Notes under the pieces: generated by a model
Told to the model about the DNA's origin: nothing
What the model saw: the letters and a program-made list of their open reading frames with translations, nothing else
Databases searched by the model: none
Shown: one piece after another, positions 1 through 64,000 of the stretch
Layout: each line of letters opens with the position of its first letter
Position numbering within the stretch: position 1 is the first letter of the stretch
Source of the DNA: Paratrimastix pyriformis
Lineage: Eukaryota > Preaxostyla > Paratrimastigidae
DNA length: 64,000 nucleotides
Reading direction: 5' to 3'
Assembly: GCA_027972325.1 (NCBI GenBank)
Contig: JAPMOS010000008.1
Coordinates: 180,001-244,000 of the forward strand
Position numbers and translations under genes: made by a program

Positions 1-2426
1 CGGTACCCACGCGGTCTTCTGGGGGCCGATTCCCATCTCAAGCGAATATCCCCTCCCCGATACGGGGGCCTCGCCCCAGGCGGCAGCAGAGGCGGCGGCC
101 GGTCCGTGGCTGGCTGCTCCCCCTTGTCCTTCAGGCGGGACCTCACCGCAATCAATGTTCATTTCACGCATCGATCCGTCGCCTTCATTCCACAGAGGAA
201 GCCCGGCGCACTCGGGACATCATGCGGGCACGATATGAAGTCGGGCCGCTCCCTGGTCTGCACCTCCCTTGCCACCCCCCCCCCTGCCACTCCCCTATCC
301 GCCCACCACCGTTCGTCGTCCCACGTTTTCACGTTCCTCTTCGCTAACTCGCCTCTCCCCAGCGATCCACTATGAACGTTACGAGCCCGTTGATTACAAG
401 GTCGCCGCCCTGACCCAGGCCCAGCGGCGCGGCCCCCGGCGCGCCCCGCCCGTTCGGCACATGAGTTTGCTCGACTTCATGCAGCGCAACCCGGCCCCCT
501 GCGTCCCCGGGCCCTTGGACTATTGTCTCAGGGACCAGCGCACCTTCTACCGCGGGGTTATGGTCTGGCCCCTCACTGTTGCCTCACCGGACGGGTGGCG
601 AGCGGAAAGTGAGGCTGATGCTTTTTCCCTCCCACCCCACGTCTCCCTCTCCCCAGGACCGTGCGGTGTCCCGCCTGCCGAAGCTTTTGCGAGAGCAGTG
701 GACCCAGGTGGGCGAGGCGGACGCCCACGAGGAGCACGACCTGCCCATCGACATGATCGGCGGGGAGGACCCCGAGCGGACCGCCCCCAAGGTGGTCGGT
801 ATCTCACCCTCTAAAACCGCTCCCATACCCACACCACACCCGTGCGGGCGCGCGTTCATGCACACAACACATAACTCCGGCTCATTGGTGCCACATCGGG
901 GACGCACTCCACCCCCCATCCCCACGTGGCCTTCTTTTCCCACACGCAGCGCCTGCTGATGGGCTGCGAGCCTTTCCTGACCGTCCTGCTGGACCTGATC
1001 CACACCCAGTGCCGCCACCTTGGTCCGCACCTCGACTGTTGTCTCCATTCCCCCCAGAGAAGGAGAGGTGGGGTGGTGGAGACAGTCAGTCATCACACCA
1101 CCGGCATCCACCTCCCTTTTTCTGCTCCCCAAGAACACCTCGAGGCCTCCCGGATCGCAGCCTCGGATGAGAACCTGTACGCCCTGACGGCGGGCGGGGG
1201 TAACAGCCTCCATGCCCGACACCGGTCCGTCTCTACTCCCCCGGCCTCTCATCATGGTGCTGACCAACCTCACCTCGCCATCCTCCCCCCGGCCCAGTCC
1301 GCACCCTGGCCTGGCCTGGGCCCAGCTGTGCCGGGGGGGCACCCCTGCCATGGAGGCCGATGCCCGCCGGGTGGAGTGGGCCCAGTGGCGCGAGACCGTC
1401 ATTGTCCGGCTGGTCGCACAGCTCGAGGCAACTCGCAGTGGTCTGTGCGCGCCCGGAGAGGGAGGAGGAGGAGGGGGGGAGGGAGGGGGGAGGGGAGGAG
1501 GGGAGACAGGTGGCGTTGAAGTCGATGATATGCCCCCTGGTCTACTTCACGTGTTGATATGACCCCCCCGGTCTGCTCCACCCCAGGATGTCTACATCAC
1601 CCCGAGGCGGGAGGCCAGTCAGCCGAGATGCACCAGCGCGAGATGGACCTCCTCCGGGCGGGCCTGCAGGCCACCTCGGCTGAGCTCCAGGGCAGACTGA
1701 CAGCCCTCCAGGGTCCGCCACCATCCCGCGCCTCACCACCTGATGCAGCCTGCGGGCAGACAAGGATACACGCCTTGACACTCTTTCGTCCCCATCCACA
1801 CCCGACTCACCCCCCAGAGAAACACGCCCGTCTGGAGGCCGAGCATGCCCGCTGCCGTGCGGAGCTCGAGCGTGAGGCCGGCCAGGGGCGCCGACTGCGC
1901 GCCCAGGCCGAGGCCCTTCGCCAGCAGCTGGCCGCGGCCCAGGAGCACGCGGGAGCCTTGGAGGCCCGCCTGGAGGAGGTCTGCTGCTCCTGTCTGACGT
2001 GAGACTCTTGTGTCTGTGTACGGCCTCCCGTGCAGTATTTGCCTCTGTGGATCTGCGCGTCTGCTTCTAGCGTCTGATGAATGTCCGTGTGTGCGCGCCA
2101 AGACAGAAAGGGGTCTGTCGTGTGTATGCGTGTGTCTGGTGGATGGGGGGGGGGGGGGGGGGGGGGGGGGGTCGGTTTGAACAGCCGATCATCATCTGCT
2201 TCTCTCCGTCTCTCGACCTGGCAGCAGCGGCGCGGCCATGGACCTCGCCACCCGCCGGCCCCTGCTGGGGGAGGTGAGGCCCCCGGGGGGGAGGAGGCGG
2301 AGGAGGAGGAGCAGACTGCTGTACATACCCCCGAGGTCTCCATCGACCACCCCCAACTCGGCACCCCGGTCCGTCCCCCTGCGCCCCCCTCCACCACCAC
2401 ACCTCCCCATAGTCATCTGGCGATAG
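1..2426 (+). CDS. Coiled-coil protein of unknown function, 5' end outside the window
   Basis: I do not recognise this protein. Short exons can be followed by open frames that end at plausible splice sites: about 364-553 (begins HYERYEPVDYK), 658-799 (DLPIDMIGGEDPER), 950-1020 (a hydrophobic helix with CEPFLTVLLDLIHTQC), 1131-1190, 1285-1440, 1590-1710, 1819-1979 and a last exon from about 2229. The exons from about 1340 onward are rich in Glu, Arg, Ala and Leu in heptads (LRAQAEALRQQLAAAQEHAG), so the C-terminal half is a coiled coil. Introns contain a G run at 2145-2171 and pyrimidine-rich ends. The stop is uncertain: an intron starting at GAG|GTGAGG near 2273 would end the protein at VIWR (2426), while reading straight through runs to 2569, inside the 3' end of the opposite BDP1 gene. 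The N-terminus lies left of the window. Confidence 0.6.
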
Positions 2427-2485
2427 CTCGTGTTCGAGGAGAGAGAGCACCAAAGAGAAAGGGGGGGAGATGGTGGGGTGTGGGT

Positions 2486-62800: not shown

Positions 62801-64000
62801 AGTGTTGGCTGCTTGTGGTGGTTGTGGTTATGGAGCCGGTGAAGGTGAGTGTGGCTCTGACCCGACCTTGGCGAACTCCTTGGCCGAGGTGATGAATGAC
62901 GATTGGATGATGATGCTTGGATGATGATGATGCTTGGATGATGATGATGATGATGATGATGATGATGATGATGATGATGATGATGATGATGATGATGATG
63001 ATGATGATTATGCCGGTGGGCTCTGACCGACCTTGGCGTACTCCTTGGCCGAGACGAGCAGCTTGACGGCCTTGTCGAAGCGCTGCGTCGAGGCGAAGAA
63101 CTCGGCGCACTGGGCCAGCAGCGAGGGGTCCGCGTCCGGGGTCAGGTCGTCCGCTGGTGCGAAGGCCACGGCCAAGGACCAAGACCCAAGACCCAAGATT
63201 GGTCAGGGCGGGAAGGGATGGGGCACAGGGATGGGAGGGAGCTTCCCGGATCATCGGGGGCAGCAGGCGTGGGGGTGGTGGTGGGGGCGGACCGATCTGC
63301 TGGAGGGAGTCGCGCAGGTTGGCGCGGAAGCAGAGCTCGATGGCCCGCCCCAGGGCGCCCCCCTTGCGGTAGAGCAGCACGGCCCGGTCGTACATCGCCT
63401 TCTGCTCGAAAAACCTGCAGGGTGGCGGGCCGCGGGGGCAGGGTGGCGGACCGGGGGAGGGAGGGTGCGTGTGTTTTTGGGGTCAGGGGACGATACGGTG
63501 AGTGGGGGGCAGTGATCGTGGGGGGAAGGGGACAGAGACGGAGGGGCGAGTGGCGATCGTGGGGCTGAGGGCTGAGTGGCGGCGGACTTTGCGGCGTCGA
63601 CCATGGGGGGGGGCCAGGGTCATGGCGTCGTCGAATTCCTGCAGACACAAGAGGGCATGCGCGGCGGATGGGTGAGAGGCGATCGTATGTGGTGGCGGTG
63701 TGGGGATGGTGCGAGGGCGGACGGAGGGACGGGGCGTGGACGTGTGCGCTCAAGGGGTGGGGCTGACCTTGGCCAGCCTGATGGCGTGGTTGTAGCGGTG
63801 GGCCTTGGAGAAGAACTTGATCGCCTCCTGGGTCTGCATCCCCCGGGCAAGGGAACCCCAAGACCGACCGACAGGCCAAAATCACAGTGGAAATGGTGAG
63901 GACCATGCGAGCGAGGGGAGCAGGAGGACTGAAAGGGGCAGAGTACATGGTGGAGGGGCGCAGGGCGGGGGGGACCTTGCCCTGGGCCTCGAACTGGCGG
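59823..64000 (-). CDS. IFT140: Intraflagellar transport protein IFT140, C-terminal part (5' end beyond the window)
   Basis: IFT140 is a core subunit of the IFT-A train for retrograde traffic in cilia. The visible part is the TPR-like C-terminal solenoid. From the right edge: AIKFFSKAHRYNHAIRLAK, EFDDAM, YDRAVLLYRKGGALGRAIEL, PSLLAQCAEFFASTQRFDKA, VCHAHEVQVTEAMVKMITE, LRDQGSYYLSARVFTEGGDK, VQLATMCRTAEIYIITANYL, then WRSKPDILKRIIEFYQKAKA and FFEACAQVEIDEYLEYEK, which match human IFT140 in order and spacing (IYIMAANYLQSLDWR; YDACAQVEIDEYQNY). It ends RTGDVYALLVQHYHAQAKHE, YNALEHMREKGI and a Pro/Ala tail finishing in MDDLGMLDDDLT. About thirteen exons. The WD40 half lies outside. Introns carry a 210-bp GGA array and several C runs on the sense strand. 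Confidence 0.93.
61496..61705 (-). repeat. GGA microsatellite, about 65 copies
   Basis: A nearly pure (GGA)n on the + strand, TCC on the IFT140 sense strand, within the intron between the exon ending ITANYLQ and the exon beginning WRSKPD. It is a pure purine/pyrimidine mirror tract. Confidence 0.97.
62265..62456 (-). repeat. ATC and ATTATCCG / ATTATCCGGTC repeats in an IFT140 intron
   Basis: CATCATC units are followed by about eight copies of CATCATTATCCGRTCATC-type units and then CACCAT units. Confidence 0.85.
62936..63008 (-). repeat. GAT microsatellite in an IFT140 intron
   Basis: About 22 GAT units on the + strand, ATC on the sense strand. It is next to a partial duplication: the exon end CTTGGCGTACTCCTTGGCCG at about 63034 resembles 62869-62889 (CTTGGCGAACTCCTTGGCCG), so exon-edge sequence has been copied into the intron. 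Confidence 0.85.

Follow-up and report, generated by a model that had tools for sequence, protein, structure and literature searches.

In Paratrimastix pyriformis, the major spliceosome very probably relies on a recoded 5' splice site, with a U1 small nuclear RNA (snRNA) whose 5' end has changed to match. The work concerns a 64,000-nucleotide stretch, hereafter the window (contig JAPMOS010000008.1 of assembly GCA_027972325.1, positions 180,001 to 244,000, G+C ∼64%), and the whole genome of 56,060,509 bases in 495 contigs. Judged from genomic sequence, the code for the intron start and the U1 that reads it appear to have been rewritten together: introns would start G/GUCUGU, or more generally GUYYGY (slashes mark exon–intron boundaries), and the U1 5' end, 5'-AUACAGACCUUG, would pair with this donor. 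It is also likely that this is a natural, genome-wide recoding of the U1:5' splice-site duplex, in a species whose genes, where examined, are rich in introns: U1 has lost its pseudouridine pair (UU to AG) and copies a U6 stretch over seven bases, the U1 and U6 helices have become identical in sequence, and METTL16 and SNRNP27K have been kept.

Intron calls and the donor motif

Introns were called with a protein-to-DNA aligner written for this work, which can open an intron in any of the three phases and favours no letters at its ends. The input was 60 Ras- and E2-family loci (30 of the 99 Ras-family and 30 of the 38 E2-family matches listed), one cyclophilin region and three window genes, and most donors were supplied by the Ras and E2 families. 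The first pass used one-strand loci only and gave 49 strict introns, 40 of them with GT-AG ends; GTYYG was found in 36 of the 40 and GTRAG in none. The second pass, which covered both strands and includes the first, had a match at 61 loci and gave 247 unique intron calls, 64 repeats of the same intron having been removed beforehand. Dropping 87 of these for weak flanks and 67 for a length above 160 bases left 93. A GT..AG placement, counted if at most three half-bits below the best, was possible in 75 of the 93, compared with 1.3 expected by chance, and these 75 introns represent 33 loci once overlaps are merged. The median intron length was 56 bases (range 39–146, the upper bound being set by the 160-base cut).

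The 73 distinct donors comprise 63 with GTYYG and none with GTRAG, whereas among the 6,609 GT dinucleotides of the same loci the two forms account for 10.3% and 2.0%, respectively (binomial p = 1.2e-51 for the GTYYG excess). The window contributed five of these donors, and outside it GTYYG was found in 59 of 68. By individual motif, the counts were GTCTG 37, GTCCG 10, GTTTG 9, GTTCG 7, GTTGG 2 and GTCTT 2, with one each of GTCTC, GTCAG, GTATG, GTGTG, GTTTT and GTACG. Position by position, the donors have G at −1 (66%), C or T at +3 (70% and 26%), T or C at +4 (71% and 25%), G at +5 (95%) and T or C at +6 (52% and 25%). Unconstrained expectation maximization over all placements, GT-AG or not, converged on G/GTCTGttt...CAG from eight of eight starts, and on the first-pass introns the motif was recovered from six of six. 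Thus, the GT..AG ends of major introns are present, and their GTRAGT donor consensus is not. The preliminary description of the window had proposed GTCTG and GTCCG donors in place of GTRAGT; these two do form the larger part (47 of 73), and since T stands at +3 in a further 16 (GTTTG, GTTCG), GTYYGY is the better description.

Two further properties of the introns were considered. A CTRAY-type branch point occurred in eight of 40 introns, against 5.2 in shuffled sequences, and a clear motif was not found. Minor (U12-type) introns, whose donor is RTATCCTT, were rejected because the donors do not fit (GTATC in none of 73); the U11 and U12 snRNAs were not searched. Three E2 paralogs on a single contig (L062, L073 and L077, contig C463) have common intron positions with different intron lengths. 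All three carry GTCTGY donors at two of these positions, and at a third common position one has GTACGG and another GTTCGG.

U1 genes and their fit to donors and U6

A whole-genome covariance search with RF00003, in which 41 of 992 candidates were scored, found eight U1 genes on eight contigs, each matching the model over its full length (1–166) with E values from 3.7e-13 to 2e-10. In all eight the 5' end is ATACAGACCTTG (AUACAGACCUUG), where the family consensus is AUACUUACCUGG, so that every copy has ACAGAC in place of the canonical ACUUAC. Relative to canonical U1, the changes are UU to AG at positions 5–6 and G to U at position 11, and the RNA from these loci would start AUACAGACC. A changed, 'GCAGAC-like' U1 had been suggested beforehand, along with a reading of its first ten bases; these are AUACAGACCU in all eight genes, complementary to AG/GUCUGUAU, in support of the suggestion. 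A pattern run over the whole genome and allowing TT or AG at positions 5–6 gave 10 matches, namely the eight U1 genes, all AG, and two unrelated sequences, with one match in the backward control. A hidden canonical U1 was thus absent both from the pattern matches and from the eight covariance matches among the 41 scored candidates. When six of the eight copies were scanned against all of Rfam, with lesser members of a clan suppressed, the gene was reported as U1 and as no other family.

Downstream, the U1 genes differ in their flanks (ungapped identity of no more than 32% across 300 bases). Upstream, TCCCATA stands at −60 or −61 in all eight, at −59 to −61 in eight of nine U2 genes scanned and, as TCCCATA or CCCATAA, at −52 to −68 in seven of seven U5 and four of four U6 genes. 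This box stands at a near-fixed distance before 27 of the 28 snRNA genes scanned, often preceded by a run of T, and resembles a promoter element common to snRNA genes. AATTC lies directly 5' of the ATAC start in all eight U1 genes and in six of nine U2 genes. Taken together, the separate contigs, the differing flanks and the positions of TCCCATA and AATTC locate the U1 5' end well, and the loci look like working snRNA genes. The Sm position reads AAUGUUUGG, the human Sm site being AAUUUGUGG, and the loop of stem-loop I is AUCACACA. The genes matched by RF00003 appear U1-like in fold and role but are not a canonical U1. The same U1 start was sought in IMG/VR contigs: of 83 pattern matches, the three with GATCA downstream were scored against Rfam, matched no family and were therefore regarded as chance.

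U1 positions 5 and 6, which are pseudouridines in human and yeast, face donor positions +4 and +3. In the proposed duplex, G6 would pair with C or wobble with U at +3, A5 would pair with U at +4, C4 with G at +5 and A3 with U at +6, whilst A7, C8 and C9 would pair with U+2, G+1 and G−1 as in canonical U1. The native AG gives Watson–Crick pairs at both +3 and +4 for 40 of the 73 donors, the most of the 16 possible dinucleotides, and canonical UU does so for none. The mean duplex energy is −8.26 kcal/mol for native U1 against −3.97 for canonical U1, and the native form pairs better than the canonical for 68 of the 73 donors.

The other spliceosomal RNAs read as canonical. U6 keeps AUACAGAGA in four of four copies, so a changed U6 was rejected and the altered U6 partner sites offered earlier as an alternative are not needed. 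U2 keeps GUAGUA and U5 keeps GCCUUUUAC in the single copy of each that was read (of 10 and seven copies), so a change there was likewise not seen. The canonical U1 end AUACUUA departs from the U6 stretch AUACAGA only at the two positions that have changed in U1. The new U1 end (positions 1–7) is therefore the same as the U6 ACAGA box together with the two bases upstream of it. UCUGU complements ACAGA exactly, and 52 of the 73 donors match it at four or five of five positions. Since the U1 end and the U6 stretch are identical, a single donor fits both RNAs: the site would pass from U1 to an unchanged U6, whose ACAGA box would pair with UCUGU at +2 to +6.

The genome contains a METTL16-family gene with FCMCNPPFF. 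The structure that matches it best is named U6 snRNA (adenine-43-N6)-methyltransferase; other matches of the fragment are bacterial RlmF, well below the cut-off, and psilocybin synthases. There is also a relative of SNRNP27K with RQYMNRKG, the M of which we take to be human M141.

Genes and introns of the window

Among the genes of the window are those for cyclophilin B, PPIL2, Ku70, DnaJ and TPR proteins, an iron alcohol dehydrogenase and IFT140, the last of which suggests an organism with cilia. No Rfam match in the window reached the gathering score. Four window genes gave 40 intron calls, 18 of which allow GT-AG within eight half-bits; GTYYG is found in 15 of the 18 and GTRAG in none. The remaining 22 calls had no such placement, and 12 of them are in Ku70, for which the reference is distant. 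Exceptions to the motif are GTCTTG at 37198, GTCAGT at 53763, GTCCCG at 52069 and GTCTCG in cyclophilin B intron 1. The predicted introns, all on the + strand, are as follows.

7583..7626, +, PPIL2 intron, GGA/GTCTGCTT...GTCAG; GT-AG placement five half-bits below best
9050..9217, +, PPIL2 intron, GGG/GTCTGCGT...GATAG; best placement, left flank weak
9276..9409, +, PPIL2 intron, CTG/GTCCGTCC...CGCAG; best placement
9500..10235, +, PPIL2 intron, ATG/GTCCGCCC...TGCAG; best placement
10320..10453, +, PPIL2 intron, CTG/GTCCGCCC...CATAG; three half-bits below best
10522..10864, +, PPIL2 intron (SQF/FLT), ATT/GTCCGCCT...GACAG; best placement
37198..37244, +, GTPase intron, AAG/GTCTTGCC...CAAAG; best placement, exception at +5
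50579..50628, +, Ku70 intron (FYAAEKK), GCG/GTCTGTAC...TACAG; best placement
52638..52744, +, Ku70 intron, GAC/GTCCGCAT...CGCAG; best placement
53763..53966, +, Ku70 intron, CCG/GTCAGTCA...TGCAG; best placement, exception at +4
59043..59095, +, cyclophilin B intron 1, AAG/GTCTCG...TTCAG; read by eye, outside the alignment path, partial motif fit
59189..59243, +, cyclophilin B intron, TTC/GTCTGTCG...CACAG; unbiased alignment, single best placement
59392..59442, +, cyclophilin B intron, ATG/GTCTGTGA...CTCAG; unbiased alignment, tied best placement

Six of the 15 donors named in the preliminary description were checked. Four of them were recovered as best placements: the GTCTGT sites of cyclophilin B (59189 and 59392), that of Ku70 at FYAAEKK (50579), and the GTCCGC of PPIL2 at SQF/FLT, which had been put at about 10517 and lies at 10522. 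The GTCTGC of PPIL2 exon 1 is exactly at 7583 as described, but five half-bits below the best placement. At the GTPase ADVHV donor, GTCTGT is indeed present at 37473, but its use as a donor is weakly placed: with EF1A, a distant reference, it falls eight half-bits short of the best placement. For cyclophilin B intron 1, the start of the 3' exon agrees with a tblastn match at 59096-59188. The 736-base PPIL2 intron holds a perfect 21-base tandem array (9777-10151, 17.9 copies, 100% match). Elsewhere in the window there are long trinucleotide arrays (CAT, ATG, GGA, TGA) at 39021-39840 (270 copies), 56015-56301, 61504-61709 and 21821-22072, and ATC/GAT runs and C runs are plentiful.

Weighing the proposed recoding, its origin and its meaning

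A number of observations weigh against a recoded donor with a matching U1. Eighteen of the 93 introns have no GT-AG placement, and the weaker flank is below 30 in 15 of these 18, compared with 26 of the 75 GT-AG introns. One of the six first-pass expectation maximization starts gave the motif one base out of register, and splice-site use is deduced from conserved protein frames. The U1 scores, 50.8–60.2 bits, are below the Rfam gathering score of 69.5. GG at U1 positions 5–6, which would pair with C and wobble with U at +4, is slightly better in energy (−9.2) than native AG, which ranks second, and the +4 C of 25% of donors mismatches A5. For the third change in U1, G11 to U, donor −3 offers no clear partner (A 29%, C 38%, G 11%, T 22%). 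Finally, the U1C zinc finger was not found, although the search was made exon by exon by family and so is weak evidence of absence. The only zf-U1 (PF06220) match, at C86:24809-24916, is best matched by WBP4 rather than U1C; a split exon, divergence or loss could account for the failure to detect U1C.

That the U1 genes are expressed, that they supply the U1 in use, and the order in which donors and U1 changed are matters that we infer from the genome. In one version of the recoding, a possibility short of even odds, selection for full ACAGA complementarity moved the donors to UCUGU and U1 followed. The fit of most donors to the U6 box and the identity of U1 positions 1–7 with U6 AUACAGA favour this order, but U1 and U6 read identical donor letters, and the sequences therefore cannot order events; moreover, the METTL16 and SNRNP27K relatives are both kept, and pairs between N6-methyladenosine (m6A) and U are described as destabilizing in the excerpt cited (PMC11732430). 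The reverse order, a slightly less probable reading, has the change spreading among the U1 copies and the donors following by drift and selection. It accords with a change common to all eight copies found and with the retention of the U6-side factors tied to +4 switches elsewhere; against it, a sudden U1 change would hit many introns at once; this order calls for a mixed pool of U1 copies, of which there is no sign today.

It is very unlikely that donors are recognized mainly by proteins or U6, with the U1 copies incidental. Such an arrangement has been proposed for Entamoeba, the cited excerpt stating that E. histolytica splices without a U1 snRNA (PMC13292270), and the failure to find U1C would agree with it, but here the two changed U1 bases both match the donors, and there are eight copies with common promoter boxes. 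It is hardly credible that GC-rich composition or a favourable choice of reading frames produced the motif as an artefact: although GTYYG makes up a tenth of all GT in these loci, 63 of 73 donors carried it in a motif-blind alignment, 75 GT-AG introns were obtained for 1.3 expected, and the match to U1 is independent, so that the donor and U1 pattern results already contradict it.

The recoded duplex can be set beside known systems. Canonical U1, with AUACUUACCUG and GURAGU donors, is alike in the 166 model positions aligned, in the principle of 5'-end pairing and in the positions paired; it differs at U1 positions 5–6 and 11 and at donor +3 and +4 (RA to YY). In general, the 5' end of U1 counts as one of the most conserved stretches of eukaryotic RNA. 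Entamoeba donors, GUUUGU, have pyrimidines at +3 and +4 as here and are complementary to U6 by wobble. Unlike this genome, Entamoeba is reported, in the excerpt cited, to lack U1 snRNA (PMC13292270). The U1 RNAs of Giardia and of nucleomorphs are, according to passages of two papers (PMC3510501, PMC6461891), likewise structurally divergent within unusual spliceosomes, but those of Giardia and the Guillardia nucleomorph keep ACUUAC and the Bigelowiella nucleomorph motif is called 'fully conserved'.

In the Saccharomycotina, as described in passages of Parker et al. 2023 (PMC10581693), donors switched from +4A to +4U, and a change of U1 pseudouridine 5 to A was considered as compensation; ACUUACC was invariant in the 236 species with a U1 candidate among 240 yeasts and outgroups. 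Again in the passages cited, the moves to +4U occur in intron-poor species and go along with the loss of METTL16 and SNRNP27K (PMC10581693, PMC11732430). Donor +4 is U in those yeasts and in P. pyriformis, but here U1 has changed, +3 has changed too, and, because the METTL16-family gene and SNRNP27K are present, the route to +4U known so far does not account for this genome. The open-licence literature yielded no comparable change in U1, which is no proof of novelty.

A nuclear genome with both sides rewritten would be a natural experiment in moving a recognition code that two RNAs share. It bears on whether U1 or U6 leads, on whether the U1 pseudouridines are dispensable, and on how any m6A on U6 copes with +4U. 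Mis-annotation of this genome would be expected from gene finders that look for GTRAGT. If the recoding is true, the +4U switch is separable from the loss of METTL16 and SNRNP27K, and the supposedly fixed recognition code of U1 can evolve.

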